Shown in pieces: positions 9,371-40,655 of a stretch of DNA of 57,368 nucleotides. The stretch spans positions 1-57,368 of IMG/VR virus record IMGVR_UViG_3300009610_000033; one strand, written 5' to 3'. Positions within the stretch are counted from its first letter, which is position 1, and each line of letters begins with the position of its first letter. The DNA is from a virus. The position numbers and the translations under genes are program-made. Under the pieces are notes generated by a model that did no database searches, was not told the DNA's origin, and was given only the letters and a program-made list of their open reading frames with translations.

Positions 9371-10705
9371 TTAGGCCGCGTTTACACTGTCGGAATGACC
9401 ATCATCGGTGGCCTCTGACGACGGGTGGCCCGCCTCCAAATCCGCAGGTTGCAGGTTCGAGTCCTGTCCCTCCTGCCACGAAGTTCCCTTTTGGAGAGGG
9501 CCGTCAGCGTCGAAGCTGGCGGCCCTTCGTGTTTCGTACCCTACGCCTACCCTAGTTGACTCTGGCGAGGCCTCCGCGGGGTCGAGTCCGAGGGCCGCGT
9601 CGAGCTTGCCGATCATACTGTCCAGCGCGCCCGGAACCACGTACGCATAGGTCTCCGTGACCCGCAGCTCGCAGTGGCCCATGAGATCCCGGATCACCAC
9701 CAGCGGCACCCCCTGGTCCTGCAGCAGCGCGGCGAAGACGCGACGCAGCGCGTGCCACCGGATGGGCTTCAGGCCGTGGGACTTCAGGATGATCTTGAAG
9801 TTGTTGGTCAACGACGTGCCGTCCCGCATCCCGCCGGTTGGGTTGGCGAAGACGAACTCGCCGCCTTCCCAGGCGTCGCCGGCGAGGATGCGGTCCTCCT
9901 CCATCTGCTGTCGCCGTAGCGCGAGCGCTTGGATGGCGAGGGCAGCGAGCGGGATTGGTCGCTGGCTCTTCGCGGTCTTGGGGCGGCCGAGCACTCGCTT
10001 CCCGTCCCGGACGTCAACCGCGTGCCGCACGTTGACCTGGCCGCGGGCCTCGTCGACGTCCTGCCACCGAAGGCCGAGCTGCTCGCCCTGGCGCATGCCG
10101 GTAGCGATGGCAAACATGATGACCGGCAGATGGCGGCTGTCCTTGAAGGCGTCGAGGATCTGCCGCGCGTCCGCCGGCGTGAGGACCTCGCGCTCGAACA
10201 CCGGTCGCTCGCCCTTGGGCATCTTGGCGAGGGACGCGGCGTTGGTGGGCAGCCCGTAGTCGATCTGGGCCTGCTTAAGCGCGCCGGACAGGGTCGCCCT
10301 GGCGTTGCGGACGGTGGACTCGGAGAGCCCGCGGGAAAGGAGCTTGGCCAACATCCGCGTCACATGGCCGGGCACCAGGTCGACTAGCTTTAGCTTGCCG
10401 ATCGCCGGGTTGATGTAGTCGGTGACGTGCTGCGAGTAGCTCCGGAAGGTGCGCGAGCGCACGGATCCCTTGGCGTGTAGCTCCAGCCAGTCGGTGAGGT
10501 ACTCTCCGACCGTAACGCCGTCCCGCGGCTTGGACATGCCACGCTCGGCGTCGGAGCGGGCTGCCCGGGACTTGGCCATGGCGCCGGACTTGGTGTCGGC
10601 GTAGAAGGAGCACTGCCGGCCGTCGACGACGACCCGTGCCTCCCAGAAGGTCGAGCCATCCTTTCGTGTCCGCTGCCGGATGCTGCCTTCCCCACGTCCT
10701 CGCAT
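9371..10705 (-). CDS. int: Tyrosine integrase
   Basis: 444 residues. It has an N-terminal three-strand arm-binding domain (about 1-60), a SAM-like core-binding domain (65-165) and a catalytic domain (172-365). Catalytic residues are visible: R205 (ATGMRQGEQLGLRW), K246 in TAKSQR, H318 and R321 (HALRR), H344 (GHCELR) and nucleophile Y353 (TETYAYV). It catalyses site-specific integration and excision at the attachment site. The final 35 residues (from QEGQDSNLQPADLEAG) are encoded by the reverse of the tRNA-like att core, so integration will replace the C-terminal tail; the catalytic domain is untouched. An AGGAGGTG site precedes the ATG, and an SOS-like operator/-10 element sits 25-42 bases upstream. 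Confidence 0.93.
   Translation of the reverse strand: MRGRGEGSIRQRTRKDGSTFWEARVVVDGRQCSFYADTKSGAMAKSRAARSDAERGMSKPRDGVTVGEYLTDWLELHAKGSVRSRTFRSYSQHVTDYINPAIGKLKLVDLVPGHVTRMLAKLLSRGLSESTVRNARATLSGALKQAQIDYGLPTNAASLAKMPKGERPVFEREVLTPADARQILDAFKDSRHLPVIMFAIATGMRQGEQLGLRWQDVDEARGQVNVRHAVDVRDGKRVLGRPKTAKSQRPIPLAALAIQALALRRQQMEEDRILAGDAWEGGEFVFANPTGGMRDGTSLTNNFKIILKSHGLKPIRWHALRRVFAALLQDQGVPLVVIRDLMGHCELRVTETYAYVVPGALDSMIGKLDAALGLDPAEASPESTRVGVGYETRRAASFDADGPLQKGTSWQEGQDSNLQPADLEAGHPSSEATDDGHSDSVNAA
9434..9478 (+). other. attP: attP core: 3' half of a tRNA-Trp gene
   Basis: The segment reads as a tRNA 3' half: anticodon loop CTCCAAA (9434-9440, anticodon CCA), stem TCCGC, variable AGGTT, T-arm GCAGG-TTCGAGT-CCTGT (9451-9467), acceptor strand CCCTCCT, G and encoded CCA (9476-9478). 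The 5' side does not complete the anticodon stem, so this is not a whole tRNA. It is the expected identity segment by which a prophage restores the host tRNA gene on integration. It lies within the 3' end of int. Confidence 0.85.
9497..9526 (+). terminator. Hairpin just beyond the tRNA-derived core
   Basis: AGGGCCGTCAGC (9497-9508) pairs with GCTGGCGGCCCT (9515-9526) with one G-T pair and a 6-base loop, then TCGTGTTT. After integration it would lie about 20 bases after the restored tRNA-Trp and could end its transcript. Confidence 0.55.
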
Positions 10706-11057: not shown

Positions 11058-12665
11058 GTGGACAACACCCTCTACTACGGCGACAACCTCGACATCCTCC
11101 GACGGTACATCCCCGACGAGTCCGTCGACCTGGTGTACTTGGATCCCCCGTTCAACTCCAACGCCACGTACAACGTCCTGTTCGGCGACGCCAAGGGCGC
11201 GATGTCGACGGCGCAGATCCAGGCGTTCGACGACACGTGGCACTGGGACCACAGCGCTGCTGAGGCGCTCGACGATGTGCTGCAGTACGGCGGCCGGCCT
11301 GCGGAGGCGATGCGGGCGTTCGAGCTCCTGCTCGGCCATGGGGACATGCTGGCGTACCTGTCGATGATGGCGCCGCGGCTGATCGAGCTGCGGCGGGTGC
11401 TGAAGCCGACGGGTAGCATCTACCTGCACTGCGACACTACGGCAAGCCACTACCTGAAGGTGTTGATGGACGCGGTGTTTGGGCCGGCGCAGTTCCGGAA
11501 TGACATCGTATGGCAGCGGACCGGGGCGCATAACGATGCACGCCGCTTCGGTCGTGTCACCGACACCATCCTGTACTACACCAAGGGTGCCGACTGCACG
11601 TTCCATCCGCAGTACGAGGTGTACGACCCAGCCTACATCGAGAAGCGCTACAGATATCTCGATCCTGACGGCCGTCGCTTTTGGGCGAACACCGCGACGA
11701 GTCCCAACCCGAGGCCGAACATGATGTACGAGTGGAAGGGTCAACCAAGCCCGCCAAATGGTTGGCGCTTTGAGCGTGCCACGATGGAGCGCATGGAACG
11801 GGAGGGCCGACTCTACTACTCTAAGTCGGGCATGGTCTACGTGAAGAACTACCTGGACGAACAGAAGGGGCGCCCAGCGCAGAATCTGTGGACCGACATT
11901 GTGATGTCGAAGTCCGGTGCCGAACGCCTCGGCTACCCCACCCAGAAGCCGCTCGCCCTCCTGGAGCGCATCATTGCCGCCAGCTCCAACGAGGGCGATG
12001 TCGTCCTCGACCCCTTCTGTGGGTGCGGCACCGCCGTGGTCGCCGCGCAGAAGCTCGGCCGGCGGTGGATCGGCATCGACCTCACGCATCTGGCCATCAA
12101 CCTCATGCGCACGCGGATCAAGGACACGTTCGGCGAAGAGGTGAAGTTCAAGGTGGTGGGAGAGCCGACGACGGAGCAGGAAGCGGCAGAGCTCGCCCGC
12201 ACCGACCCGTACCAGTTCCAGTTCTGGGCCCTGGGCTTGGTGGGCGCGCGGCCGGCGGAGCAGAAGAAGGGTGCGGACCAAGGCATTGACGGCCGGCTGT
12301 ACTTCCGCGACGACCCGAAGGCGCCGTCGAAGCAGGTGATCATCAGCGTGAAGGCGGGCAAGCTGCAGGCCGGCTACGTGCGCGACCTGGTCGGGGTGAT
12401 CGCCCGGGAGAAGGCAGCCATCGGCGTGCTGATCTCGATGGGTGAGCCGACCAAGCCCATGCGCGAGGAGATCGCCAGCCACGGGTTCTACGAGAGCCCG
12501 TGGGGCACGCGCCACCCGCGCATGCAGATGCTCACCATCGAGCAGCTCATGGCCGGCAAGCGCATCGACTACCCGGCGAGCGGGCAGCGTAGCGAGACGT
12601 TCCGGCAGGCGCCGCGGGCGTCGGGGGATGCGGGGCGGCAGGGCGAGTTGTTCGGGGAGGAGTAG
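11058..12665 (+). CDS. DNA methyltransferase fused to a nuclease-like domain
   Basis: 535 residues from a GTG start. Residues 1-370 are an amino-methyltransferase of the beta (type III/Mod-like) order: catalytic DPPF at 29-32 and the SAM-binding DPFCGCGT at 318-325, transferring a methyl group to adenine N6 or cytosine N4. Residues about 385-500 carry a restriction-endonuclease-like fold signature: GADQGIDGRLYF, then QVIISVKAGK near 430, reminiscent of Mrr-type PD-(D/E)XK enzymes, but the residue before VK is Ser where Glu or Gln is usual. It could be a one-protein modification-restriction enzyme or a methylase with an inactive recognition module. It lies alone between int and the repressor, the usual place for lysogeny-module cargo. 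Confidence 0.85.
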   Translation: MDNTLYYGDNLDILRRYIPDESVDLVYLDPPFNSNATYNVLFGDAKGAMSTAQIQAFDDTWHWDHSAAEALDDVLQYGGRPAEAMRAFELLLGHGDMLAYLSMMAPRLIELRRVLKPTGSIYLHCDTTASHYLKVLMDAVFGPAQFRNDIVWQRTGAHNDARRFGRVTDTILYYTKGADCTFHPQYEVYDPAYIEKRYRYLDPDGRRFWANTATSPNPRPNMMYEWKGQPSPPNGWRFERATMERMEREGRLYYSKSGMVYVKNYLDEQKGRPAQNLWTDIVMSKSGAERLGYPTQKPLALLERIIAASSNEGDVVLDPFCGCGTAVVAAQKLGRRWIGIDLTHLAINLMRTRIKDTFGEEVKFKVVGEPTTEQEAAELARTDPYQFQFWALGLVGARPAEQKKGADQGIDGRLYFRDDPKAPSKQVIISVKAGKLQAGYVRDLVGVIAREKAAIGVLISMGEPTKPMREEIASHGFYESPWGTRHPRMQMLTIEQLMAGKRIDYPASGQRSETFRQAPRASGDAGRQGELFGEE

Positions 12666-20866: not shown

Positions 20867-21069
20867 CCGTCCTGGAGATCGCCCCCATGGTCCTTGCCCC
20901 GCGGAAGGTCGTCGGCCGCTGCCTGGTGTGCGACTGCCGGCTCGTGACGCCGCGCGAGGCTGTGCGCTGCGAGCCGTGCCAGGAGCGGGGCGCGTGGCCG
21001 CCGTGGATGGCGGCGGAGCTTGAGGCGGTGGTGGCCGAACCGGCGGACGAGGGGAGCGAAGCGCCATGA
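20863..21069 (+). CDS. Small zinc-binding protein
   Basis: 68 residues from a GTG overlapping the previous stop. CLVCDCRLV and VRCEPCQE give four cysteines spaced for one zinc. It directly precedes the replication initiator with a four-base overlap. Confidence 0.5.
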   Translation: MTVLEIAPMVLAPRKVVGRCLVCDCRLVTPREAVRCEPCQERGAWPPWMAAELEAVVAEPADEGSEAP

Positions 21070-22181
21070 GCGTACACGTCTCTGCCCGCGTCTGGGACCA
21101 GTGCCAGCAGAATGGCGAGGCCTTGCTGGTGATGCTAGCGCTTGCCGACCACAGCAACGACGCCGGGGAGTGCTGGCCGAGCTTGGACCGCATCGCCGAC
21201 ATGGCGCGAGTAGAGAAGCGTTCCGCCATCCGCATCCTCAAGCGGCTTGAGGATGCGGGCGAAGTCGAGGTCGAGCGGGGCGGCGGACGGGGCCACACCA
21301 ACCGCTACTCCCTACCGAAGTATGCCCGGGCGGGTACCCCAAACGGTGACCGAGTGACATCCATTCCACTAGAAACAGTGACCGCGGAGTCACCGTTAGC
21401 GGCGGTAAACGGTGTCCCAACGTCACCGAATGGCGGTCCAGAAAGGGTGACTTTGGAGCCACAAACGGTGACCGCGGTGCAAGAAAGGGTGACCCTGATG
21501 CACGAAAGGGTGACCGGGGGGTCACCCGAACCATTAGAACCATCAAAGAACCATCAAGGGGAACCGTCAGAAGAAAATTCACCGCGCGACGATCAGCGGA
21601 TGTTCGACTCGCTGTGCGGGGTCTACGGCACCACGGCGGCAGCGATCGTCGGCAGCGCCCGCGGTCGGATGAACAAGGCGATCGCCGAGTGGCGTGCCGA
21701 AGGGGTATCGCCAGAGCAACTCGACATCGCGGTCGGGATCTACCGGGAGTCGTTCAAGGGCAGGCAGGGCGAGCGACCTAGCCGAGCAGACCTCGACGAT
21801 GCCATCGGGCAAGCGAGGGCAGGCCGCGTCGCGGAGTCCGCAGCCATCGACCAGGTCATCGCCGAGGGCATGGCGGACGTCGAGGCGCGGCTCGAAGCCT
21901 CGCCACGTGCACCAGCCGACGCCGACCGGCTGTGGCGCGAGGTCCACGCCGGCCTCGCCCTGCGCATGCCATCCGCTACGCTCAAGGCGTGGGTCGACCC
22001 GGTGCAGGTGGCGTCGTTCGACGGCCAGACGCTCACGCTCGTGGCGCCGACCGCCGCGGTGCACTCATGGCTGACGCAGCGATTGGCACGCGAGCTCGAC
22101 GAGGCGCTGGCGGACGTGGCGCCTGGGTCACGGGTGGTGGTGCTGGCGCCCGAGGCGGCAGTGGAAGGGCGGGCGGCATGA
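21066..22181 (+). CDS. Replication initiator: HTH domain plus DnaA-N-like domain
   Basis: 371 residues. Residues 1-88 are a winged HTH of the phage replication-protein kind (ALADHSNDAGECWPSLDRIA, VEKRSAIRILKRLEDAGEVEV, GHTNRYSL). Residues about 92-155 are low in structure and are encoded by a repeat array that looks like the origin. Residues about 285-355 resemble DnaA domain I (LWREVHAGLALRMPSATLKAWV, LTLVAPTAAVHSWL), the part of DnaA that contacts DnaB helicase. The protein should bind the origin and recruit host or phage-usable helicase. No primase or helicase gene is seen nearby, so the host replisome is probably borrowed. Confidence 0.8.
   Translation: MSVHVSARVWDQCQQNGEALLVMLALADHSNDAGECWPSLDRIADMARVEKRSAIRILKRLEDAGEVEVERGGGRGHTNRYSLPKYARAGTPNGDRVTSIPLETVTAESPLAAVNGVPTSPNGGPERVTLEPQTVTAVQERVTLMHERVTGGSPEPLEPSKNHQGEPSEENSPRDDQRMFDSLCGVYGTTAAAIVGSARGRMNKAIAEWRAEGVSPEQLDIAVGIYRESFKGRQGERPSRADLDDAIGQARAGRVAESAAIDQVIAEGMADVEARLEASPRAPADADRLWREVHAGLALRMPSATLKAWVDPVQVASFDGQTLTLVAPTAAVHSWLTQRLARELDEALADVAPGSRVVVLAPEAAVEGRAA
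21341..21556 (+). other. ori: Candidate replication origin: iterons and unwinding repeats inside the initiator gene
   Basis: Seven 11-base direct repeats close to AAA(C/G)GGTGACC at 21341, 21373, 21407, 21442, 21463, 21484 and 21505, with inverted partial copies at 21389-21397, 21421-21428 and 21521-21527. They are followed by three AT-richer GAACCAT(T/C)A repeats at 21528-21536, 21537-21545 and 21548-21556, which could be the unwinding element. The plan matches lambda, whose origin lies inside gene O. Confidence 0.8.
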
Positions 22182-22940: not shown

Positions 22941-23068
22941 TCCGGAACGCCGCGCGCTGGCTCGTCTGGGCGGCGCTGGCGCTGGTCGCCGTGCTGTGGA
23001 GCGCTGGGGTTGAGTTCTTCACCGACGACGAGGGCGTGGTGGACGGGCTGATCGGAGATGACCGTTGA
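22937..23068 (+). CDS. Single-pass membrane miniprotein
   Basis: 43 residues from a GTG overlapping the previous stop. One hydrophobic segment (ARWLVWAALALVAVLWSAGV, residues about 6-25) with a short acidic tail. Too small to assign. Confidence 0.45.
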   Translation: MIRNAARWLVWAALALVAVLWSAGVEFFTDDEGVVDGLIGDDR

Positions 23069-23090
23069 ACGAACCAAGGAGGGTACCGAA

Positions 23091-24479
23091 GTGAAGCAGC
23101 GAACCGAAGGCCGGCTGATGTACTCGTTATCCCAGCTCCAGGCGTGGAAGCGCAACTACAACCGCGGCGACGTCCACGCGATCGCCGCCAGCATCCAGCG
23201 CTGGGGATTCAACGGCGCGCTCCGTGTGTGGTCCGGCGACGATAGCCAGGCGCCCACGGTGATCGCCGGCAACCACACGTACCTCGCGCTCCTGCAGCTG
23301 AAGGACGAGGGCGCCGATCCACCCGTGCACGTCGACGTCGCCCCGGACGGTAGCTGGCAGGTGGCGTGCGTCGACGTCTCCCACCTGGCCTACCACGAGG
23401 CCGAAGCGTTCGCCATCGCCGACAACCGCGTCGCATCCCTGGCCACGCACGACGACGAGAAGCTCGCGCTACTCCTGCGCGAGATCTCCGATCAGAACCC
23501 GGAGGACCTCGCGGCCATCGGGTACGACCTGGACGACATCGAGAACCTGCTCCGCCGCCTTGGCGACCTGGACGACGATCGCCCCGCCGCGCCGGAAGCA
23601 CGCCTCGACCGGCTCAAGGAGCTGAAGGAGGAGTGGGGCACGGCAGCCGGCCAGCTGTGGGTCATCCCCAGCGCCACGTGCCCGGGCAAGGAGCACCGCA
23701 TCGTCTGCGGCGACGCCACCGACGGTGCGACAGTCGCCCGGCTGATGGCCGGCGAGCGCGCGGTGCTCTTCGCCACCGACCCGCCCTATCTGGTCGACTA
23801 CGATGGCACCAACCACCCACAGGCCAAGGGCACCGGCGCACGTGAGAAGAGGATCGCCAACAAGGACTGGGACGAGGTCTACGACGACAAGTGGGACGAC
23901 GCCTCGCAGGGCGCCGACCTCTACCGCGGCTTCATTCAGGCGGCCATCGAACACGCCATCACCGAGGACGCCGCCTGGTACTGCTGGCACGCGTCGCGGC
24001 GCCAGGCAATGCTCGAGGGCGTATGGGAGGAGTTCGGCGCGTTCGTGCACCAGCAGATCATCTGGGCAAAGAGCCGGGGCGTGCTCACGCGCAGCTGGTA
24101 CCTGTGGAGCCACGAGCCGTGCTTCTTCGGCTGGATCCGCGGCCAGAAGCCCAAGCGCGTGGCGGACAACCACCCAGGCAGCGTCTGGCAGGTGGCCACG
24201 GCCGACGCCGACACCACCGGCGATCACCCGACGTCGAAGCCCACCGCGCTCTGGGAGCTGCCCATCGAGCAGCACACCAGCCGCGGCGACCTGATCTACG
24301 AACCCTTCAGCGGCAGCGGCACCGCGCTCGTGGCGGCCGAGCGCACCGGCCGCATCGCGTACGCCTGCGAACTCCAGCCCGCGTTCGTCGCCGTTGCCCT
24401 CGACCGGCTCGCGCAGATGGGCTTGGAGCCTCGGCTGGAGAGTGCCGAAACAGTGACCGAGACCGTGACCGAACAGTAG
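23091..24479 (+). CDS. ParB-like/DNA methyltransferase fusion
   Basis: 462 residues. Residues about 10-120 are a ParB/RepB N-terminal domain (YNRGDVHAIAASIQRWGF, VIAGNHTYLALLQLK, AFAIADNRVASLA). Residues about 195-445 are an amino-methyltransferase with catalytic DPPYLVDY near 236 and the SAM-binding EPFSGSGTA motif near 407. Such fusions are frequent in phages and methylate adenine or cytosine, perhaps to protect DNA from host restriction; CTP or DNA binding by the ParB part is unproven. A GTG at 23091 with AAGGAGGG 8 bases upstream is preferred over the ATG at 23058. Confidence 0.9.
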   Translation: MKQRTEGRLMYSLSQLQAWKRNYNRGDVHAIAASIQRWGFNGALRVWSGDDSQAPTVIAGNHTYLALLQLKDEGADPPVHVDVAPDGSWQVACVDVSHLAYHEAEAFAIADNRVASLATHDDEKLALLLREISDQNPEDLAAIGYDLDDIENLLRRLGDLDDDRPAAPEARLDRLKELKEEWGTAAGQLWVIPSATCPGKEHRIVCGDATDGATVARLMAGERAVLFATDPPYLVDYDGTNHPQAKGTGAREKRIANKDWDEVYDDKWDDASQGADLYRGFIQAAIEHAITEDAAWYCWHASRRQAMLEGVWEEFGAFVHQQIIWAKSRGVLTRSWYLWSHEPCFFGWIRGQKPKRVADNHPGSVWQVATADADTTGDHPTSKPTALWELPIEQHTSRGDLIYEPFSGSGTALVAAERTGRIAYACELQPAFVAVALDRLAQMGLEPRLESAETVTETVTEQ

Positions 24480-29325: not shown

Positions 29326-29432
29326 ACTACCCGTTGTGGTGGCCAGCACGGCACCAACCGAATAGCAGGGCCGCAACTGTGTGAACACACCGCAGTCCCG
29401 CCCGTCGTCCGTGGCCGCTCGCCCCAACAGGC

Positions 29433-29452
29433 GCCCGCCAGGGATGGCGGGC
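29433..29452 (+). terminator. Leader terminator before the portal gene
   Basis: GCCCGCCA (29433-29440) and TGGCGGGC (29445-29452) pair over GGGA, followed by TCTTTTGCTTT. The arrangement promoter, hairpin, CTCTT/TTTA tract, GGCCACGG and start codon recurs at 53079-53177. Confidence 0.75.
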
Positions 29453-29479
29453 TCTTTTGCTTTAGGCCACGGGGACGGA

Positions 29480-31933
29480 ATGACGCCAACCCGCAGGGAA
29501 CTGATCGCCGACGAGGCGCGGGCCGAACTGGCCGCGCTGGCTGGCGCTACCCGGCGAGCGGTGACCAAGCCCGCTACCACCCGCGTCACCCCCACCGCCG
29601 CCCAGCCGTCCGCCGCGCCGACCTACGAGCCCGGGCTGCCGTCGCTCCTGGCCGGCGCCGGGAAGGACCAGTTCGCTGCCGCCGGCCGCCGCACCATCGA
29701 CCGGCCCACCTACACCCAGGAGCAGGTCTACGCAGCGCTGGATGCGGCGTTGGACTACAACCCCGACGCGTCCTACGCCGCCTGGGTGTACAAGCTCCTG
29801 GGCCTGCGCGACTGGGACCTGGTGGTCGAAGGCGAAGACGGTGAGCCCGACGAGCTCGTCACCGACGAAGCCCTCGCGTTCACCGAGCGCTGCTGCCTGG
29901 CCTACGGTGGCGGGATCGATGCGATGCTCGCGGTGGGGATGGAGTCGCTGTTCCGCCGCGGCGCCATCGCCGGCGAGCTCGACGTGGCCGACAGCCTCGA
30001 CGAGGTCCTCGACGTGGCGTTCGTGGATCCGGCCTACGTCGACTTTGAGCCGATCACGGACGGCAATCACAAGAGCCTGCGCCCCGTGTACCTGCCGTCG
30101 ACCGGCGGCGATCCGGTGCCGTTCAACCAGCACCAGTTCACCTACATCTCGCATGGTGCGCGGGTAGATCTGCCGTACGGCAAGTCCCCGTTCCTGCCGC
30201 TGGTCGACGCTGCCTACCCCTACGCCGAGCTGCGGGACGGGCTGCAGCGGGTGGTCAAGGGCCAGGGCTTCAGCAAGATGGCCTTCATCTACGACTACGA
30301 CCAGGTGGTCAGGACCGCGCCACCAGACGCCGTCCAGTTGTCCGCCGAGGGCGGGGTGAAGGTCCTCGACTGGAACAAGCTCAAGGCGCACCTCGACGCG
30401 TTCGTGGAGGACCTCCAGGACGAGATCGAGGAGATGTACGACGACGATCGGTGGGTGCTGCCCGACATGGTGAAGCCAGGCAGCGTCGGCGCCAACCACG
30501 CGACTGAGTCGATGGACTTCGCAAAGATCGCGCAGCTGTTCGACCAGGACGCCATCGTGGCCACCAAGAGCCAGCCGGCTATCCACGGCCGGCAGTGGGG
30601 CTCCGACCTGTCGTCGACTGGCTCTGTGCAGTGGACGGTGCAGGCGCTGGGCATTGAGGCCATGCGCGACTACGTGCGCCGCTTCGTGGAGTTCGTGGTC
30701 GACGGCTGGCTCACCGTCACTGGGCGCCGCGGCGCGGCTCGCCTGGTGTTCCCGCCACTCCGTAAGGAGGACCGGAAGGCCGAGGCTGAGGCCGACAAGC
30801 TCGTCACTGAAAACGCGATCCTGCTCCGCGATGCCGGTGCGATCGACAACGACGAGATGGCCGAGATGACGGTCGGCCACCCGGCCACCGGTGCGCCGGC
30901 TACGGTCGACGTACCGCCTGCACCGTTCGCCAACGGCCGCACGACTCCCGCGCGCCAGCTGCCGCTGCTGGTCGGTGACCAAGGCTCGCGCGCCGACCCC
31001 TTCACCCCAGAGGTGACGGACGCGGCCGGGCCCGTCGAGATGGAGAACGAACAGCAACCGCCCGGCGAGGTTGATGCTCGCCGGGTGGTGCGTGCCTTCG
31101 ATGAGTGGGCACGCGACGAGGCTGAGAGCTTCGACGGATTGCTCGACGCCGTGGTCGTCACCTCGGCGCCTGAAGCCAGCAATGGCCGCGCGAAGTCCAA
31201 CGGCAACGGCCACGCGCGCGCACTGTCGGCGCCGGCCGGGCGCTGGCAGTGGGACGCCACCGTGGCCCGCTGGCGCTACCCGTCCGATACGCCCAACCGC
31301 CTGGGCCGCCTGCTGCCGCCAGAGCGCGCCGACGAGATATTCGAGCGCCGCATGGCTGCCAGGAAGGCCGAAGCGGTTGCCCTCGCCGAGCGCTTCACGG
31401 CGGGCCGGATGACGACCCGCGAGTTCCAGGACGCCTGGGCGAGGGTGGCGAAGGACGCCCACCTGGAGGCCCGCATGATCGCGGCCGGCGGGAAGAACGC
31501 CATGACGCCCACGCACTACGGTGCGGTTGGTGGCCGTGCCGGCACCGAGTACCGCGTGATCGGCAGCCTCGGCAAGCAGATCGAGTCGGGCGAGCTGTCG
31601 GCCGCGCAGATCCGCCAGGCTGTGGCGCGCCGCTTCGATGCCCCGGTGCGAGAGACGTACCGCCGCGGGCGCGAGTATGTGCACAGCCGAGCCGGGTACA
31701 TGGAGGAGCGCAACCACCTGGAGCCGGGCGCCATGCACTGCCCGGGCTGTGAGGCCGAGGCCGGCCGCGGCTGGGTGGCGCTGGGGAGCATCAAGCCCGT
31801 GGGGCAGCGCGACTGCTCGACCGGCTGTGCGTGCCACATCGAGTTCCGCGTGAGTGCCGAGCAGGCCATGCCGGCGCACCGGGCCGCGGGGACTGTCGAC
31901 GTGTACCGCACGATGTACGAGGTGCCAGCGTGA
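29480..31933 (+). CDS. Portal protein fused to a MuF-like head-morphogenesis domain
   Basis: 817 residues. Residues about 60-480 are a portal of the DUF935/SPP1-like order, with conserved-looking VYKLLGLRDWDLVVEGEDG, an acidic loop, LPYGKSPFLPLVDAAYPYAEL and a long C-terminal helix. Residues about 620-800 are a MuF/SPP1 gp7-type domain ending HCPGCEAEAGRGWV and CSTGCACHIEF, whose Cys pairs are typical. Portal and MuF are usually separate genes; fusion is known in some phages. It forms the dodecameric ring at the capsid vertex. Start at 29480 follows GGGGACGG; an upstream in-frame ATG at 29381 lies in the leader before the terminator. Confidence 0.85.
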   Translation: MTPTRRELIADEARAELAALAGATRRAVTKPATTRVTPTAAQPSAAPTYEPGLPSLLAGAGKDQFAAAGRRTIDRPTYTQEQVYAALDAALDYNPDASYAAWVYKLLGLRDWDLVVEGEDGEPDELVTDEALAFTERCCLAYGGGIDAMLAVGMESLFRRGAIAGELDVADSLDEVLDVAFVDPAYVDFEPITDGNHKSLRPVYLPSTGGDPVPFNQHQFTYISHGARVDLPYGKSPFLPLVDAAYPYAELRDGLQRVVKGQGFSKMAFIYDYDQVVRTAPPDAVQLSAEGGVKVLDWNKLKAHLDAFVEDLQDEIEEMYDDDRWVLPDMVKPGSVGANHATESMDFAKIAQLFDQDAIVATKSQPAIHGRQWGSDLSSTGSVQWTVQALGIEAMRDYVRRFVEFVVDGWLTVTGRRGAARLVFPPLRKEDRKAEAEADKLVTENAILLRDAGAIDNDEMAEMTVGHPATGAPATVDVPPAPFANGRTTPARQLPLLVGDQGSRADPFTPEVTDAAGPVEMENEQQPPGEVDARRVVRAFDEWARDEAESFDGLLDAVVVTSAPEASNGRAKSNGNGHARALSAPAGRWQWDATVARWRYPSDTPNRLGRLLPPERADEIFERRMAARKAEAVALAERFTAGRMTTREFQDAWARVAKDAHLEARMIAAGGKNAMTPTHYGAVGGRAGTEYRVIGSLGKQIESGELSAAQIRQAVARRFDAPVRETYRRGREYVHSRAGYMEERNHLEPGAMHCPGCEAEAGRGWVALGSIKPVGQRDCSTGCACHIEFRVSAEQAMPAHRAAGTVDVYRTMYEVPA

Positions 31934-34110: not shown

Positions 34111-35346
34111 ATGACCATTCTCTTCAAGGACTTTACGCCGAACCGTGCCATGCCGGAGCGCTCGCTCCAGCTGGCAAAGAACATCGACGACGGCATCTAC
34201 GACACCCACGACGAGGAGGAGGGGCGCACCCTCACCGCGCTGGAGGTGTTGGAGCGCGAGGACCCGAGCGACGACCAGCCCGACTGGCTGCGCGGCACTA
34301 CCGCGCTCCAGCGCTCGTTCATGGCGATGAACGTGCGGACCCGGGACGACCACCAGCGCGGTATCCGCGCCTCGACGGTCGGTCAGCTGTTCGACGCCGG
34401 CGGCGGCCGCGGCGCTGTGCTGTTCCCTCTGTGGATCGAGCAGTCCTGCCGTGACCGGCAGGCGGCCATCTTCGAACGCTTCTACTCGTCCAACCAGGTG
34501 GGTGACGGCAACAACGCATTGCGCCCGCACAACCTCGCCGCGCAGATCACGGGCGATGCGTTGCGGCAGTCGCTCCTGCCGCTCCTGGTGGGCTCGCAGG
34601 AGCTGGGCGACGGGCGGCCGTACACGTCGTTCCACATGAGCGAGGACTCGACGAAGACGACCATGCGTCGTCGCACCGAGTTCGCGCCGTCGGCAGTGTA
34701 CAGCCTGACGGCGTCGGAGCGGACGCATAAGCTGGAGGAGTTCGGGATCCAGCTGGAGATCAGCTACAAGGCCATGCGCGAGTACGCGCTGCCGGCCTTG
34801 CAGCAGCACCTCAACTGGATCGCCCAGCGGAACGACCTCACGAAGGAGCAGGTCGCCTACGAGGTGCACATGTCGGGCGACGGCAGTTCGGCTGCCGCGA
34901 CCAACACGAACGTCTCGAGCCTGACCGGCGGTGTGGCCGGCGCGATCACCCTGCCTCAGCTGCTGGAGTTCCTGCGGCTGTACGAGGGCGACGGCAACTA
35001 CGCTCCCTCGATCATGATCGGCACGAGCGCTGTGCTGACGGTGTTCGATGCGTCGACGTTCGGCAGCGCCGAGCACCCGACGTTCGGCCCCCTGGGCCTT
35101 GCCATGCTCGGCCAGGCGTCGCGCCCTGAGGCGCGGTCGGTTCCGCCGATGTACTCCCGGAGCTACGCCACGGCGAACAAGGGAGGCTTCTTCGACCGGG
35201 CGACGCTGCGCATGGTCTACACCCCGCTCCTCGTCGAGCGGGACAAGGTCATCACGGGCAAGTTCGACGTGATCGTGATCTCCGAAGAGACGAACTTCGA
35301 TCACCTGCGTGACGGTGGCCGGCGCACGCTCGACGTGAACAACTAG
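34111..35346 (+). CDS. Major capsid protein (HK97 fold)
   Basis: 411 residues. N-terminal helical scaffold-like part (about 1-70), an E-loop region, then the P- and A-domain pattern, including EEFGIQLEISYKAMREYALP and a C-terminal KVITGKFDVIVISEETNF. Length and position (protease, decoration, capsid) fit the HK97-type lattice protein. AGGAGG lies 7-8 bases before the ATG. Confidence 0.85.
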   Translation: MTILFKDFTPNRAMPERSLQLAKNIDDGIYDTHDEEEGRTLTALEVLEREDPSDDQPDWLRGTTALQRSFMAMNVRTRDDHQRGIRASTVGQLFDAGGGRGAVLFPLWIEQSCRDRQAAIFERFYSSNQVGDGNNALRPHNLAAQITGDALRQSLLPLLVGSQELGDGRPYTSFHMSEDSTKTTMRRRTEFAPSAVYSLTASERTHKLEEFGIQLEISYKAMREYALPALQQHLNWIAQRNDLTKEQVAYEVHMSGDGSSAAATNTNVSSLTGGVAGAITLPQLLEFLRLYEGDGNYAPSIMIGTSAVLTVFDASTFGSAEHPTFGPLGLAMLGQASRPEARSVPPMYSRSYATANKGGFFDRATLRMVYTPLLVERDKVITGKFDVIVISEETNFDHLRDGGRRTLDVNN

Positions 35347-35358
35347 GAGCGTCGCGAG

Positions 35359-36162
35359 ATGAAGATCAACAATCGCACGTTCCTGGCGTTCATCCTTCTC
35401 CTCGTCGTGGCGGGGGTGGCTTCGGCCATCCTCGTCCCGTCGGCCCCGGCCACTGGCGCGCCCGTCCAGCAGAACCGGTTCAACTACCGGGTGCAGGTCC
35501 GCGCCAGCAGCACCGAGCCGGCCCTGTGGGTGCGCCAGAGCGGCGCAGGGAAGGCGTTCGAGGTCCAGGCGGTGCCGACCAACACCGGCACGCCAGGCGT
35601 CAACGGGACGCCGGTGACGGCTCTGTCGGTGGCGAAGTCCGGGGTGACTACCTTCAACCTGCCACTGGCGGTTCCGACCGCCGGTGGCCTGACCCTGGGC
35701 GGCGTGGTCACCAACGCGGTCAACGTCGAACACCGGAACTTCCCGACGTACGCGACGACCAGCTTCACCTACACGGCGGCGGCCGGCGGCACGGTGCCGC
35801 TGTTCACCATCGCGGCGGGTGAGGAATGGGTGGTGCACGGGTTGTGGTTGGAAGTCACTTCCAACTTCAACGCCACCGGCGATGACGTCACCATGCTCAT
35901 CGGCGACGGCAACGACACCGACGGATTCTGTGTGCTCGCCGACGCGGAGTTGCAAGCCGCCGATACCGAGGGCACGGGGTGGAGCGCTGGCTGGCAGTGC
36001 CAGGTGGCTGCTACCAGGGGCGTGTACCAGGACGGGACCGGCGGGTTCATCTACGACGAGGCGTCGACCGAGACGATCGACGCGATCATCGGCGAGACGT
36101 CGGGCACCACCCTCAGTGGTGGCGCCGCGACGGCGCACATCCTCTACACACGGATCGACTGA
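35359..36162 (+). CDS. Exported or anchored protein within the head operon
   Basis: 267 residues. Residues 8-25 form a hydrophobic signal or anchor (FLAFILLLVVAGVASAIL), after two Lys/Arg. The rest is beta-rich, Gly/Thr/Val-heavy, with two cysteines (GFCVLA, WQCQVA) and repeated DGNDTDGF-like turns; it resembles a surface or head-fibre jelly-roll. A signal sequence in a capsid gene block is odd: either the product is exported to the host surface, or it is a virion protein whose leader is a capsid-binding helix. Confidence 0.6.
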   Translation: MKINNRTFLAFILLLVVAGVASAILVPSAPATGAPVQQNRFNYRVQVRASSTEPALWVRQSGAGKAFEVQAVPTNTGTPGVNGTPVTALSVAKSGVTTFNLPLAVPTAGGLTLGGVVTNAVNVEHRNFPTYATTSFTYTAAAGGTVPLFTIAAGEEWVVHGLWLEVTSNFNATGDDVTMLIGDGNDTDGFCVLADAELQAADTEGTGWSAGWQCQVAATRGVYQDGTGGFIYDEASTETIDAIIGETSGTTLSGGAATAHILYTRID

Positions 36163-36202: not shown

Positions 36203-36237
36203 GGCAGTGCTTATCCGAGAGTCCACAGGAGGCCATG

Positions 36238-36777
36238 ATGTCTGACGGTACGATCTTTGTCGCAGCGCCGCGGAAGCACCCGTTCGACCACCTGGACCCG
36301 GGCAGCCGCCTCGTGTTCAGCGAGTGGGATCGGCGCCACCCGGCCAACCCTGCCTACGCCTCGCCGGCCGCGGAGGTCTGCATCAGCGAGGGCGACGGTG
36401 TCGCGGGCGATCCCGCCCGTGCCAACAACCCGCGCGGCAACCCACCGTGGGAAGTGTGGCCGACGCCAGCCGTGGTCGGGAAGATCACCAGCGGCGACCT
36501 GGTCCGCGTCGAGAAGGGCGAGGACACGAGCGACCTGCAGCTGGACGACAACCAGCTGGCGAGCCTGAACTCGCTGACCGACCGGCAGGTGGCCGGCCTG
36601 ACGAAGCGCGGCTTCGAGACCGTGGAGGACCTGGCCGACAAGATCGGCCGCTCCGACGATCCGCTGGCGATGCTACAGGGCCAGCGCGGCAAGGCCGGCT
36701 CGATGTCCGAGGGAGTCGCGCGGGACCTGCTCAACGAGCTGGTGGCCCGCGGCGCCATCGAGGCCACGGGCTTCTAG
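36238..36777 (+). CDS. Head-region protein of unknown function
   Basis: 179 residues. The N-terminal half has Pro-rich loops and strands; the C-terminal half LNSLTDRQVAGLTKRGFETVEDLADKIG resembles a helix-hairpin-helix-type repeat, as found in some connector-region proteins. AGGAGG precedes two adjacent ATGs (36235 and 36238); the second has better spacing. Confidence 0.5.
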   Translation: MSDGTIFVAAPRKHPFDHLDPGSRLVFSEWDRRHPANPAYASPAAEVCISEGDGVAGDPARANNPRGNPPWEVWPTPAVVGKITSGDLVRVEKGEDTSDLQLDDNQLASLNSLTDRQVAGLTKRGFETVEDLADKIGRSDDPLAMLQGQRGKAGSMSEGVARDLLNELVARGAIEATGF

Positions 36778-36786
36778 GCACAGGCA

Positions 36787-37341
36787 ATGGCGTACACCCC
36801 GGTGATCGTCGGCACCGCCGACTACGGTGACATCCGTCTGGCGCTCGGCTTCGCGGCCAGCGCCACGACGGACGTTCCCGATACCCTCGTCGAGGGGCGC
36901 AGCTTCCTGCGCTTCGTCGAGGGCAGGGTGCAGGTGGACGTGCCAACGTACGCCACGATCCTCGACACCGGTGATGCCGACTACAGCGCCCAGCGGGCGG
37001 ACGCTCTGAAGAACGGCGTGGTGCTCTGGACGGCCAGCCGCATCGCGGCACTGTGGTTCGGTGCTCGGCAGGGCGAGGAGATCGTCCGCGAGGCCCTCGG
37101 GCCGGCGTCGGTGCAGTTCCGCGAGGGCCCCGGTTGGCAGGAGCTCGCCGAGCGCCTGGCGCAGGAGGCGGCCGGTGAACTGGCGGTGGTCGACCACTGG
37201 GGCGAGACGGCACCGCGAATGGTGCTGTTCGGGAAGTCCGGCCCGACCCGCAAGGCGGCAGACGATGCGGCCGTGGTGGGCACTACGACGTGGCGCGAGC
37301 GATTGTGGCCGCCCGTCGTGAAGGATCGGGACTACCCCTGA
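36787..37341 (+). CDS. Head-tail connector (adaptor) protein
   Basis: 184 residues. Helical, with NGVVLWTASRIAALWFGARQGEEI and QELAERLAQEAAGEL helices, in the position of the HK97 gp6/adaptor protein. Its ring would bind under the portal. It overlaps the next gene by one base. Confidence 0.6.
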   Translation: MAYTPVIVGTADYGDIRLALGFAASATTDVPDTLVEGRSFLRFVEGRVQVDVPTYATILDTGDADYSAQRADALKNGVVLWTASRIAALWFGARQGEEIVREALGPASVQFREGPGWQELAERLAQEAAGELAVVDHWGETAPRMVLFGKSGPTRKAADDAAVVGTTTWRERLWPPVVKDRDYP

Positions 37342-37667
37342 TGCCACGAGGAAGCGGGCTGGGAAGCGTCGTGACCGACCTGGTCGACCGCCGTGGCCAG
37401 AGCGTGGTGCTCGTGCGCGCCGGAGCCGCGCTCGGCGCCCAGGACATGGTGCTGGACGTCTACGTCCTGGGCGCCGGCGAGGTGGCGATGATCGAGGCGG
37501 CCAGTGGCCAGGCTGGACTGACGTCGCTGAAGATCATCGGCGGCACGGACCTGGACATCGACCGCGGCGATCAGTTCGTGGCCGGCGACCTGCAGTACCG
37601 GGTGGTGCTGGTCAGCCCACCCGACGGCGTGCAGCGCATCGCCTACGCCCAGGGGCTGGAACACTGA
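37341..37667 (+). CDS. Head-closure (stopper) protein
   Basis: 108 residues, beta-rich (QSVVLVRAG, MVLDVYVLGAGEV, DRGDQFVAGDLQYRVVLVSPP), fitting the small barrel of SPP1 gp16-like stoppers. Position between adaptor and tail-completion genes supports it. Coupled by TGATG overlap on both sides. Confidence 0.6.
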   Translation: MPRGSGLGSVVTDLVDRRGQSVVLVRAGAALGAQDMVLDVYVLGAGEVAMIEAASGQAGLTSLKIIGGTDLDIDRGDQFVAGDLQYRVVLVSPPDGVQRIAYAQGLEH

Positions 37668-38302
37668 TGAAGGTGATCGTCGTCACCGGCCACACTGGTG
37701 AGGGGTGGGATGCCATCGCTGCAATCACCTACCCAGGCCTGGCTGCCTACTGCGACCGGCACGGGTATGACCTGACCCGGGCGCCGCTGGCCTCGTGTTC
37801 CGAGGGAAGGCCGGCGTCCTGGGGGAAGGTGCCGGCGCTCATGGCGGCACTGCGCCACGCCGACGTTGCCGTGTGGATCGACGCCGACGCCGTGATGTAC
37901 CCGGTGGCGCCGCCGATCCACGAGGCACTGAAGCACGACGCCTGGCAGGCGATGGTGGTGCACCAGACGCCGGAGGGCACGGTGCCCGGCTGCGGCGTGT
38001 GGGTGGTGACGCGCCCTATGGTGCCCGTGCTGCGCCTGGCGTGGGCGGACTACCGTGACCACCGGTGGTGGGAGCAGGCGGCCATGCAGCGGCTCATGGG
38101 CTTCGAGCCGGACGCGCTGCCGGTGACGCAGCGGCTCGACACAGTAGTGTGGCGACACACTGCACTGCTGGACGCGCGCTGGAGCGTACTGCCGGGCGAC
38201 GATCGCCCGGATCCGTACATGCGCCACGCACCGGGCGGACGGCCGCTGGTGATGCGTGAGGCCATGCTGCGCGAGTGGGCCAGAGAGGCGGTGCCCGCGT
38301 GA
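37667..38302 (+). CDS. Glycosyltransferase (GT34/GT-A-like) in the connector block
   Basis: 211 residues. MKVIVVTGHTGEGW and SWGKVPALMAALRHADVAVWIDADAVM (in two parts) carry the DXD motif D72-A-D74 for metal-sugar-nucleotide binding, and WWEQAAMQRLM replaces the usual acidic DQ..L motif. The layout matches the galactosyl/alpha-hexosyl transferase family. It could add sugar to virion or host surface structures. The enzyme gene lies between head-closure and tail genes, in register with coupled TGATG starts, so it is cotranslated with virion proteins. Confidence 0.8.
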   Translation: MKVIVVTGHTGEGWDAIAAITYPGLAAYCDRHGYDLTRAPLASCSEGRPASWGKVPALMAALRHADVAVWIDADAVMYPVAPPIHEALKHDAWQAMVVHQTPEGTVPGCGVWVVTRPMVPVLRLAWADYRDHRWWEQAAMQRLMGFEPDALPVTQRLDTVVWRHTALLDARWSVLPGDDRPDPYMRHAPGGRPLVMREAMLREWAREAVPA

Positions 38303-38700
38303 TCCGCCCCAAGCTCACCTACAAGACCGCCCCACCGACGCGCGCTATCGCGTCCGTCATTCGCATCCCGGACGATGTGAACAAGGCCGTGAACGAGGAG
38401 ATGTCCGCGATCGCGCGCGACATGCAGGTGTATGCCAAGGACAGCCATCCCTGGCAGAACCGCACCGGACGCGCCGAGGAGGGTCTCACCGGATACAGCG
38501 GCGCCTACGGTGGAGCGGTCGCTGGCCCGGGTCGCAAGGTGTTCTACGCGGCGCTCCGGCATGGCAAGGACGTCTTCTACGGCATCTTCCTGGAGGTGAA
38601 GCACGGCGGCCGCTGGGGGATCATCCAGCGCACGCTGGAGGCGTTCGTCGGCCAGATCCCTGGGCGCATCGTGAACGCGATCAACGAGGCGGTGCGCTGA
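38299..38700 (+). CDS. Neck/tail-completion protein (HK97 gp10-like)
   Basis: 133 residues from a GTG overlapping the previous stop. MQVYAKDSHPWQNRTGRAEEGL then strand-rich FYAALRHGKDVFYGIFLEVKHGG and the final WGIIQRTLEAF helix follow the HK97 gp10 pattern. Confidence 0.7.
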   Translation: MIRPKLTYKTAPPTRAIASVIRIPDDVNKAVNEEMSAIARDMQVYAKDSHPWQNRTGRAEEGLTGYSGAYGGAVAGPGRKVFYAALRHGKDVFYGIFLEVKHGGRWGIIQRTLEAFVGQIPGRIVNAINEAVR

Positions 38701-39197
38701 TGGGTGCCACCCTCGCCGAGACGATCCGCGAGCTGCTCGTTGCTGACACGTCCTACGCGACGAAGCTGCCAGGTGGGCTGTACCTGGCCGATGAATCCAC
38801 GTACGCCGAGGTCGGAGCTGGTGCCCAGCAGCACCCGATCAACCCGACCGACACGCCGAACGCCTACGTGGCCATCGACGGCACGACGGTGAAGAAGCTC
38901 ACGTGCTGCGGGCTGATCATGACCAGTTCCGAGCCGACGACGAACCGCGGGCAAGGTCGGTCAACGTTCGTCCGCATCTACTTCTACGACTGCATCGGCT
39001 ACGCCCGCACCCGCGCCGCGCGCGAGTGGGCCCGCGGCATCCTCCACGACCGCAAGGTGCTGGCCGGTGGGAAGGGCGTCGAGCTGATGCACTTCACCGA
39101 CCTGACGAACAGCGGTGACGAGAGCCTGCAGGGCGGCGACGGGAAGCGACCGCCGTCGATGGAGCAGAGCACCTATGAAGGGCGAGGTCGATGGTAG
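38700..39197 (+). CDS. Tail terminator/completion protein
   Basis: 165 residues. ETIRELLVADTSYATKLPGGLYL and STFVRIYFYD with a C-terminal LMHFTDLTN fit the small alpha/beta tail terminator (gpU-like) fold in position after gp10. It shares 7 bases with the glycosyltransferase that follows. Confidence 0.6.
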   Translation: MGATLAETIRELLVADTSYATKLPGGLYLADESTYAEVGAGAQQHPINPTDTPNAYVAIDGTTVKKLTCCGLIMTSSEPTTNRGQGRSTFVRIYFYDCIGYARTRAAREWARGILHDRKVLAGGKGVELMHFTDLTNSGDESLQGGDGKRPPSMEQSTYEGRGRW

Positions 39198-40417
39198 CGC
39201 CGGTCGAGCTCTCCTGGTCGGTGGACCCCGGCGCTGGCGGACTGGCCCGTCTGGACGGTCTGCCCTACGACCCGTTCAAGTCCAATGCTGCCGGCTACGG
39301 GAACATGCGCGCCGGCATCTGCCGCGGCTTGGAGGCGCTGGGTGTTGAGTACCGGATCATCCCGGCGCCGTCGTTCCTCGAACGCCTGGTGTCGTGCGAC
39401 CTAGACATGCCCGACGAGTGGCGCGACCGGCCGCACCCGGGCGGCACCCGCTGGCGCCAGCAGTGCCGCGTCACTGAGGTGCGCTCGGAGCCGATCCCCG
39501 ATCTGGTGACACGCCCTGACGTGACCCGCATCTGCATCGGCACCCCTGAGACGTGGACGTGGGGTGGAGCCGGCCGCCGCATTGGCATGACCATGTGGGA
39601 GTCGAGCGCCCTACCCGACGGCCGCAACAGCTGGGTCCCGTGGTTGGAGGACGCCGACGAGGTCCTCGTGCCCTGCGAGCACAACGCCGCGCTGGTGCGG
39701 CGCCAGTCGGCCGCCAGCGTGCGCGTGGTGCCGCTGGCGCTGGACCCGGCAGAGTGGCCGCTGGCGGACCGCACGCGGCGCCCTGGCGCCCCGTTCGTGT
39801 TCCTGCTGTCCGGCCAGCTGTCCTACCGCAAGGGCTGGCTGCACGCCTACCAGGCCTTCATGCTTGCGTTTGGGCGTGATCCGCGGTTCCGCCTGGTGCT
39901 GAAGACGTCGAGCCGATCAGAGCTGTGCGCGCTCGACTCCAAGGACCGGAGCCGCTACGCCTTCTGGTTCGAGGATCCGAACGTCACGGTGCTGCGCAGC
40001 TTCTACAGCCACGCCGGCATGCTGGAGCTGTACCGCCGGGCCGACGCCTTCGTCTGGCCCAGCCTCGGCGAGGGCTACGGCCTTCCGCCACGTGAGGCTG
40101 CGCTGACGGGGCTGCCGGTGATGTCGACGGACAACACAGGTCTGGCCGATGCCGCTGCCTGGGCGTGGCGCACGGTGCGGTCTGAGGAGGCCGCCGGCGT
40201 CGCGGCCATCTTCGGCCCATGGGGCTACTGCGGTCAGTGGGCACAGTTGGACACGGGCGACCTGGCCGCGGCGATGATCGAGATGGTGCAGGAGCGTGAG
40301 CAGGCGGCCGAGTGGACGAGGGACGTCGCGCGGCCGTACCTGAGCGAGCGTAGTTGGACCGACGTGGCGCGGGAGATCCTCGCGCCTCAAACAGCGAGGG
40401 AGGTGCTGTGTGCCTGA
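39191..40417 (+). CDS. GT4-family glycosyltransferase in the tail block
   Basis: 408 residues. A GT-B fold is indicated by the N-terminal domain (GYGNMRAGICRGLEALGVEY), SGQLSYRKGWLHAYQAF near residue 215, and PSLGEGYGLPPREAAL near 290 with the two donor-binding glutamates seven residues apart. The best match is family GT4 (retaining). Together with the GT-A-like enzyme at 37667 it forms a two-enzyme set inserted among tail genes, a likely virion- or receptor-glycosylation system. Confidence 0.85.
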   Translation: MVAPVELSWSVDPGAGGLARLDGLPYDPFKSNAAGYGNMRAGICRGLEALGVEYRIIPAPSFLERLVSCDLDMPDEWRDRPHPGGTRWRQQCRVTEVRSEPIPDLVTRPDVTRICIGTPETWTWGGAGRRIGMTMWESSALPDGRNSWVPWLEDADEVLVPCEHNAALVRRQSAASVRVVPLALDPAEWPLADRTRRPGAPFVFLLSGQLSYRKGWLHAYQAFMLAFGRDPRFRLVLKTSSRSELCALDSKDRSRYAFWFEDPNVTVLRSFYSHAGMLELYRRADAFVWPSLGEGYGLPPREAALTGLPVMSTDNTGLADAAAWAWRTVRSEEAAGVAAIFGPWGYCGQWAQLDTGDLAAAMIEMVQEREQAAEWTRDVARPYLSERSWTDVAREILAPQTAREVLCA

Positions 40418-40655
40418 AGATGCGAAGGTATTAGGCGGCGACAACCAGGCGCCGAAGGCAGCGCCGGCGACGGTGCCGGTGGTCATGACGGCCGGTCGAC
40501 CGTGGGCGGTCGGAGAGTCGATCGGGCTGTCGAAGGGCTACGCCTTCGAGCCCGGCGTCCCGATCGACGTGAGCAGCGCGGACGCCAAGATCCTCTGCAA
40601 CAAGGACGGGTGGGATGGTCGGCACTTCGAGCGATGTGGCGACGGTAGCCAGTAG
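40410..40655 (+). CDS. Small hypothetical protein
   Basis: 81 residues from a GTG with GGGAGG upstream, overlapping the glycosyltransferase by 8 bases. Ala/Pro-rich start, then SIGLSKGYAFEPGVPIDVSSADAK. Possibly a tail-associated small protein. No family recognised. Confidence 0.5.
   Translation: MPEDAKVLGGDNQAPKAAPATVPVVMTAGRPWAVGESIGLSKGYAFEPGVPIDVSSADAKILCNKDGWDGRHFERCGDGSQ

Follow-up and report, generated by a model that had tools for sequence, protein, structure and literature searches.

Two predicted glycosyltransferases, one apparently resident and one accessory, among the head-tail genes of a temperate siphovirus

The DNA analysed here, called the window throughout, is an IMG/VR virus record (IMGVR_UViG_3300009610_000033) of 57,368 bases whose gene order is that of a temperate siphovirus. 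Downstream of the capsid gene (34111) and upstream of the tube gene (41045) it carries two glycosyltransferase (GT) genes, one for an enzyme of GT-A fold and one for an enzyme of GT-B fold; the two proteins are referred to below as GT-A and GT-B. Comparison of gene content and sequence with related phages indicates that GT-B is a conserved resident of this block and that GT-A is an accessory insertion. With moderate confidence, we believe that both are cytoplasmic enzymes that are co-produced with the proteins joining head and tail and glycosylate a protein of the phage particle, GT-B priming the glycan and GT-A extending it with donors from the host. The two genes are:

37667–38302, + strand: GT-A-fold glycosyltransferase, GT34-like; 211 aa, DXD at residues 72–74; apparently accessory, not in the nearest relative
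39191–40417, + strand: GT-B-fold glycosyltransferase, GT4 family; 408 aa, EX7E at residues 294–302; kept in the slot before the tail tube gene

A reading made from the sequence alone (the sequence-only reading) had placed two glycosyltransferases among the head-tail genes. Both open reading frames are indeed present there, with support from profile, motif and fold. Against Pfam, GT-B matched PF20706 (GT4-conflict; E 1.9e-13, 50.6 bits, cut-off 26), PF00534 (Glycos_transf_1; E 8.1e-9, 35.7 bits, cut-off 26.4) and PF13692 (34.6 bits, cut-off 27), and among the PHROGs it matched phrog_2170, a glycosyltransferase family, at E 2e-22. The EX7E motif together with basic donor-phosphate residues is a GT4 signature. 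The two glutamates of this motif, E294 and E302, as well as R213 and K214, were invariant in all 22 aligned GT-B sequences. The structural model of GT-B was the weaker of the two, with a predicted local distance difference test score (pLDDT) of 76.8 and a predicted template modelling score (pTM) of 0.79; pLDDT was below 50 at residues 10–26, 63–104, 250–259 and 402–408. The PDB entries listed as matches to this model are proteins that we take to be GT-B-type enzymes. The top match was the chlorovirus enzyme B736L (3oy2; E 1.2e-12), to which we give no weight because ordinary GT4 enzymes were close behind and because the acceptor of B736L is itself described as not known (PMC9614988). The GT-B profile or model also matched PimB, PimA, MshA and WaaG. 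These results confirm, by Pfam, PHROGs, motif and fold, the assignment of 39191–40417 to the GT4 family of GT-B enzymes, with a predicted activity.

GT-A passed the Pfam cut-off for Glyco_transf_34 narrowly (E 4.7e-5, 23.7 bits; cut-off 23), and three of its relatives scanned in the same way fell under it (21.6, 21.6 and 18.8 bits). D72 and D74 of its DXD motif were invariant in 18/18 aligned sequences. An AlphaFold model made with 17 relatives had a pLDDT of 92.9 and a pTM of 0.90. When this model was submitted to Foldseek, the top four matches came from three entries of the PBCV-1 glycosyltransferase domain A064R-D1 (best E 9.7e-12, TM-score 0.72), and the next protein in the list was a xyloglucan xylosyltransferase (E 2.5e-8). 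A profile search of solved structures also placed A064R-D1 first (E 6.4e-7); a search of the same structures with the single sequence gave no useful match. A GT-A fold with a DXD metal site was thus found by alignment, model and Foldseek, which confirms 37667–38302 as a gene for a GT-A-fold, GT34-like glycosyltransferase of predicted activity. A 19-residue hydropathy scan detected no membrane-like stretch in either enzyme, the maximum values for GT-A and GT-B being 1.13 and 0.89.

Distribution of the two genes in other phages

Single-protein scans were carried out first, and alignment-based scans worked once a relative was known. A DNA-level search with the region against 50,697 phage records gave no match, nor did tblastn searches of these records in which GT-A or the capsid protein was the query. 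Single-protein scans of viral contigs with GT-B and with the capsid protein found no relative. The tube protein, used in the same way, identified one close relative, L006, whose tube is 62% identical. The L006 block is syntenic with that of the window and consists of a structural protein, the capsid, two connector-region genes, the stopper-position, closure and terminator-position genes, GT-B, two small genes and the tube. Pairwise protein identity across the stretch that begins with the connector-region genes and ends with the last small gene is 34–43%, and GT-B, at 41%, occupies its slot in L006 and has diverged to the same degree as its neighbours. It therefore appears to have been inherited with the block over a long divergence. 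GT-A was not found in L006 by profile or by synteny, and the stopper-position and closure genes there are 10 bases apart. L006 carries an extra gene (5034–5744, + strand, 236 aa) at the junction of the connector-region and stopper-position genes that the window does not have at that place.

An alignment of GT-B proteins from the window, L006 and phage DanielleIgnace detected 20 viral loci, one of which is the L006 contig and one of which matches phage Kitkat. In 13 of the 20 a tube gene lies 4–929 bases downstream of the GT gene, and in 12 a Kitkat-type terminator gene lies directly upstream, as counted with a hidden Markov model (HMM) built on Kitkat, Magritte and DanielleIgnace only. The annotated order in Kitkat and Magritte is tail terminator, glycosyltransferase, small gene, tube, tail assembly chaperone and tape measure, with one more small gene before the tape measure in Magritte. 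The terminator is named in both; the tube is named major tail protein in Magritte, and that of Kitkat is a hypothetical protein of the same family. By homology the DanielleIgnace GT is in the same place, among neighbours annotated as hypothetical. The slot enzymes are distant from GT-B, being 22–27% identical to it where they were aligned (Kitkat, at 22%, and L015). The same alignment gave two weak matches among genome contigs, both in bacterial contigs. A search of the 20 GT-B records with PF05637 gave no match, and none in any control genome, and is hence uninformative.

The Kitkat and Magritte tubes belong to phrog_36442, a family without annotation in PHROGs that was matched by 8 of 10 downstream proteins scanned. 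By sequence it looks like a tail-tube family, since the aligned Magritte protein is annotated as major tail protein and two members weakly match phrog_4971. The family, which is listed as being of unknown function, includes the proteins at L113 9494–10084 and L114 9408–9986. When viral contigs were scanned with phrog_36442-type tubes (best 80 of 152 relatives kept), a GT gene was found upstream in 72/80 loci, a fraction valid for that lineage and not for tubes generally, as every tube used to seed the scan came from a GT-bearing locus. The GT gene was within 2.5 kb in 67 loci and further away in 5; 5 loci had none and 3 were too short. The terminator gene stood directly before the GT gene in 58 of the 72. 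Across 41 dereplicated loci, chosen with an HMM that mixed the window's terminator-position protein with Kitkat-type terminators, GT distances correlated with tube distances (r 0.80) and less with terminator distances (r 0.59; terminator versus tube, 0.69). Of the three proteins the terminators have diverged furthest (mean distance 0.70), so part of the gap in r may be noise.

GT-A has a different distribution. A single-protein scan of viral contigs gave one distant match, L002, and a later scan gave 20 loci, the L002 contig among them. Its profile matched none of 192 other loci (L003–L194), so GT-A does not seem to belong to the Kitkat-type slot. In 9 of the 20 GT-A loci (L195 and L198–L205) a GT4 gene lies directly upstream of the GT-A gene, whose product is 34–42% identical to that of the window. 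All but one of these nine loci also have a small tube gene next to the pair, which gives a contiguous trio in 8/20 GT-A loci; the tubes were called as phrog_4574 by PHROGs in L202 and L204 and by a profile of those two in the rest. The pair precedes the tube gene in L199 and L201–L205 and follows it in L195 and L200. Capsid-family matches were found before the pair in 7/8 (L200 excepted) and tape-measure-like matches after it in six (L195, L199, L201, L202, L204 and, weakly, L205). As the GT-A proteins of L201 and L202 are identical and that of L203 is 85% identical to both, about six lineages are represented, or seven with L198. All nine loci differ from the window in that their GT4 belongs to another subgroup (five of the nine were aligned; 17–20% identity, no TMWE motif) and in that their capsid and tube families are different. 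They also have the GT4 gene directly followed by GT-A, whereas in the window the two are split by the closure and terminator-position genes and stand in the reverse order. The presence of GT4 and GT-A beside the tube in these other phage types indicates that the pairing occurs in more than one kind of phage. L195 contains a third GT-like gene (7128–8123, + strand; phrog_14775, E 4.3e-7) between its capsid and tape-measure-like genes.

Surrounding genes and genome layout

The other genes of the block in the window are:

34111–35346, + strand: major capsid protein, second candidate acceptor; phrog_3922 major head protein, E 5.3e-19
36235–36777, + strand: connector-region protein 1; 180 aa, 37% identical to L006 3982–4434, no PHROG match
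36787–37341, + strand: connector-region protein 2; 184 aa, 38% identical to L006 4459–5031
37338–37667, + strand: stopper-position protein; 109 aa, 39% identical to L006 5748–6068; phrog_4904, unknown function, E 0.0013
38299–38700, + strand: closure/tail-completion-like protein; 133 aa, GTG start, 43% identical to L006 6082–6480
38700–39197, + strand: tail-terminator-position protein; 165 aa, 41% identical to L006 6500–6991; named by position and size only
40410–40655, + strand: small protein between GT-B and tube; 81 aa, 34% identical to L006 8194–8472
40615–40992, + strand: protein between GT-B and tube; 125 aa, 37% identical to L006 8481–8933
41045–41629, + strand: major tail (tube) protein, candidate acceptor; phrog_4971 major tail protein, E 1e-24; 62% identical to L006 9001–9582

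Spacing between consecutive genes is −1 base from the stopper-position gene to GT-A, −4 from GT-A to the closure gene (GTG at 38299), −1 from closure to terminator-position gene, −7 from there to GT-B and −8 from GT-B to the next gene. Such short overlaps are the arrangement of translationally coupled genes. The sequence-only reading had described both GT genes as alternating with closure and terminator genes and as coupled to them. The overlaps are real and suggest coupling of both GT genes to their neighbours; the names of those neighbours are less firm. The term 'closure' derives from the L006 homologue, which matches phrog_5 (tail completion/Neck1) at E 0.0022. Neither the terminator-position protein (38700) nor its L006 homologue has a PHROG match, the window's protein has no PDB match, and direct comparison with the annotated terminators of Kitkat and its kin detected no relation.

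Between the capsid and connector-region genes, the window has a gene (35359–36162, + strand, 267 aa) without a counterpart at that place in L006. Its product contains 18% Ser/Thr and has no PHROG match; the N-terminus is strongly hydrophobic and signal-peptide-like (19-residue hydropathy 2.97 at residue 8), which is unusual for a head operon. It is possibly a surface-exposed or decoration protein.

The window as a whole contains genes for an endolysin, an HNH/FtsK-like protein, an integrase, methyltransferases, a replication initiator, terminase and portal, together with a small structural protein ahead of the capsid gene, the major capsid, connector-region genes, tube, tape measure and tail genes. 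The integrase (9371–10705) indicates a temperate phage. A single open reading frame at 6233–7648 (− strand, 471 aa) combines HNH endonuclease families (residues ~4–83) with FtsK/SpoIIIE (149–389). The product of 11058–12665 (+) is an N6/N4 DNA methylase with a C-terminal Mrr/NACHT-associated nuclease-like domain, possibly a single-chain restriction-modification or anti-restriction protein, and that of 23058–24479 (+) is a DNA methylase fused to a ParB-like N-terminal domain. The replication-initiator O-like protein (21066–22181, +) has a match to the DnaA N-terminal domain close to its C-terminus. In the 850-aa portal (29381–31933, +) the C-terminal region 621–831 matches phrog_24776, of unknown function (E 3.9e-32).

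Acceptors and alternative roles

The acceptor is most likely a virion protein, given the structural operon, the fixed place of GT-B and its co-inheritance with the tube. GT-B would add the initial sugar to one of the abundant proteins of the particle, with the tail tube as first choice and the capsid as second; the preference for the tube is a guess from adjacency. That GT-B can act alone and starts the glycan is suggested by the occurrence of GT-B-type enzymes without GT-A in many phages. GT-A, the addition of this lineage, would then extend the sugar, as its structural relative A064R-D1 extends a glycan and does not start one. Timing would be late, and the purpose may be to shield or stabilise the particle. 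The sequence-only reading had proposed coordinated glycosylation of virion proteins, and the position of GT-B beside the tube and the likeness of GT-A to A064R-D1 make this the best-supported reading; the enzymes do not, however, look like one coordinated pair, GT-A appearing as the accessory and GT-B as the resident. It had also noted that no sugar-nucleotide synthesis gene is near. PF01370 and PF00483, the only two such families searched by name, are both missing from the window, so host donors are probable as far as these two families go.

A number of results weigh against virion glycosylation, or limit it. We infer enzyme activity, order of action, acceptor and donor; substrate, glycan and chemistry are predicted only, and a fold match does not fix a substrate. 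No tube match was found in 7 of the 20 GT-B-type loci, and in 11 of the 20 GT-A loci the profile used detected no adjoining GT4 gene, although L207 and L208 have one ~4 kb away. GT-B has relatives outside the slot, as it matches 135 phage records, 127 of them of Streptomyces phages, and in the two phages examined (Kenrey of Streptomyces and Trina of Rhodococcus) the GT genes are located away from the tube gene. In the window's own tube family (best 80 of 149 relatives kept; many are fragments, and in 63/80 loci the sequence ahead of the tube is 2 kb or longer), a PF00534 GT was found in 0/79 records with the L006 contig left out (49 + 30 records); both searches were positive in all 14 control genomes. 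Two annotated tube relatives examined, Sparcetus and Hawkeye, lack a GT in the region inspected. A GT does not seem to be a requirement of the tube itself, and among the relatives seen the window and L006 are thus the members that carry a GT in a tube family otherwise without one. In mycobacteriophages the glycans are on the C-termini of capsid and tube (PMC12619734). The fraction of Ser/Thr in the last 10 tube residues, a sequence proxy only for such a site, was 0.085 in the GT-bearing family (n = 80, including 8 loci without a seen GT) and 0.265 in the GT-less family (n = 79), so the C-terminal site of mycobacteriophages does not appear to carry over to tubes of the GT-bearing family; the window's tube ends PYTTP and that of L006 PYTSS. 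Neither enzyme could be related to the GTs of mycobacteriophage Che8, GT-A having been compared with gp110 (BLASTP and profile) and gp109 (profile) and GT-B with gp108 (profile).

A broader proposal can be put forward tentatively, and we regard it as possible rather than probable: glycosylation of the tail tube would be an ancient and integral part of assembly across a wide range of siphoviruses, in which the slot GT4 evolves with the tube. Some lineages would separately have recruited a GT-A extender structurally akin to a giant-virus capsid glycosyltransferase, and the resulting two-enzyme system for a virion glycan would be unrelated to that of the mycobacteriophages.

Late modification of the host surface, the other option of the sequence-only reading, fits the data less well. 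A cell-wall or surface polymer would be glycosylated and adsorption blocked, resulting in superinfection exclusion or lysogenic conversion. The phage is temperate, GT4 enzymes commonly build surface glycans, and PimB, PimA, MshA and WaaG are among the matches of GT-B. A Gtr-type lysogenic conversion cluster consists of a GtrB-type GT2 enzyme with a flippase, beside the integrase. Here the GT genes are ~27 kb from the integrase, in a head-tail operon where they overlap structural genes; the window has no match to PF00535 (GT2, GtrB-type), a flippase not having been searched for, and neither enzyme has a membrane stretch. A host-surface role has been proposed for other phage GTs, for example Tweety gp104 (PMC2884959), but it would leave the repeated place beside tube genes unexplained, and we consider it rather unlikely for the enzymes of the window.

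The best Pfam match of GT-B, PF20706 (GT4-conflict, E 1.9e-13), could point to modification of host proteins or small molecules during takeover, or to a conflict system. However, ordinary GT4 models match too, a Pfam name is not a tested function, and the position in a structural operon and the recurrent slot argue for another role, so that we give this explanation a low probability. It is also quite unlikely that position says nothing of function, the genes being cargo (morons) inserted in a tolerant operon with a GT activity unrelated to their neighbours. The absence of GT-A from L006 and the extra gene of L006 at 5034–5744 do indicate that the block takes up inserts, but GT-B-type genes hold one slot across divergent phages, their history follows that of the tube, and catalytic residues are conserved in both GT families.

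Pyle and colleagues reportedly dealt in 2024 with phage GTs in DNA modification (cited in PMC12619734). Glycosylation of hydroxymethylated phage bases is known from T4 (PMC9614988), and in Brevibacterium phage LuckyBarnes two GTs are paired with a dCMP hydroxymethylase (PMC6588365). Such a role is very improbable here, since the window, a record that may be incomplete, has neither a Tet/JBP dioxygenase (PF12851, in a search with a weak control) nor a thymidylate-synthase-type hydroxymethylase (PF00303), and the GT genes are not near replication genes.

Comparison with known systems

Glycosylation of phage virions is already known; the recurrent slot and the structural link to A064R-D1 are the point of interest here. 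Phage-encoded GTs are reported to glycosylate the capsid and the tail tube in mycobacteriophages Che8, Corndog and Myrna (PMC12363180), and this work (Freeman et al. 2023) is also cited in PMC12619734, PMC11256854 and PMC12691614. Virion glycosylation has been suggested as well for Rhodococcus cluster CB phages (PMC13313380). The mycobacteriophage system resembles the window in that the GTs are phage-encoded and that gp36–38 of Corndog lie within the structural operon. The Corndog modification genes have the portal gene on one side and the protease gene on the other, and modification of the capsid was put forward in 2015 (PMC4351075). Che8 gp108–110 differ, being a GT2-like protein with a methyltransferase domain, a weakly GT2-like protein and a GT25-like protein, and their genes are at the right end of the genome.

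A closer likeness to GT-B is found in the GT4-type genes of Arthrobacter phages KellEzio, Kitkat and BeatusComedenti (gp28/29) and of DanielleIgnace (gp21) and Microbacterium phage Magritte (gp31). The terminator-GT-tube regions were examined in Kitkat, DanielleIgnace and Magritte; KellEzio and BeatusComedenti were identified by the GT match only. Unlike the window, these phages have no GT-A in the slot, their tube family is phrog_36442, and their terminator is not matched by that of the window. A passage published in 2017 places the KellEzio GT between the capsid and major tail genes but gives no interpretation (PMC5513430). Our literature search, a weak test since subscription papers were mostly outside it, found no account of a conserved GT slot beside the tail tube or of a GT4/GT-A pair.

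The relative of GT-A by structure, A064R-D1 of PBCV-1, adds L-rhamnose to xylose in the N-glycan of the capsid (PMC9614988). Like GT-A it has a GT-A fold with a DXD motif (PDB 2p6w) and a similar length (213 versus 211), and it acts on a viral capsid glycan. It differs in that identity in the structural alignment is 15%, in that it is one of three domains of a protein from a virus of a eukaryotic alga, and in that it extends an N-glycan.

If the proposed role is correct, virion glycosylation would be older, wider and enzymatically different from what has been reported for a few mycobacteriophages, of which Che8 uses enzymes of the GT2/GT25 type. Phages of Arthrobacter and Microbacterium have a GT gene beside the tail-tube gene, as do dozens of phages known from metagenomes, and the cultured phages among them allow testing. 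The finding also points to a tail-tube role for the unannotated family phrog_36442, and it would connect, through structure, the chemistry of phage particles with a giant-virus capsid glycosyltransferase.

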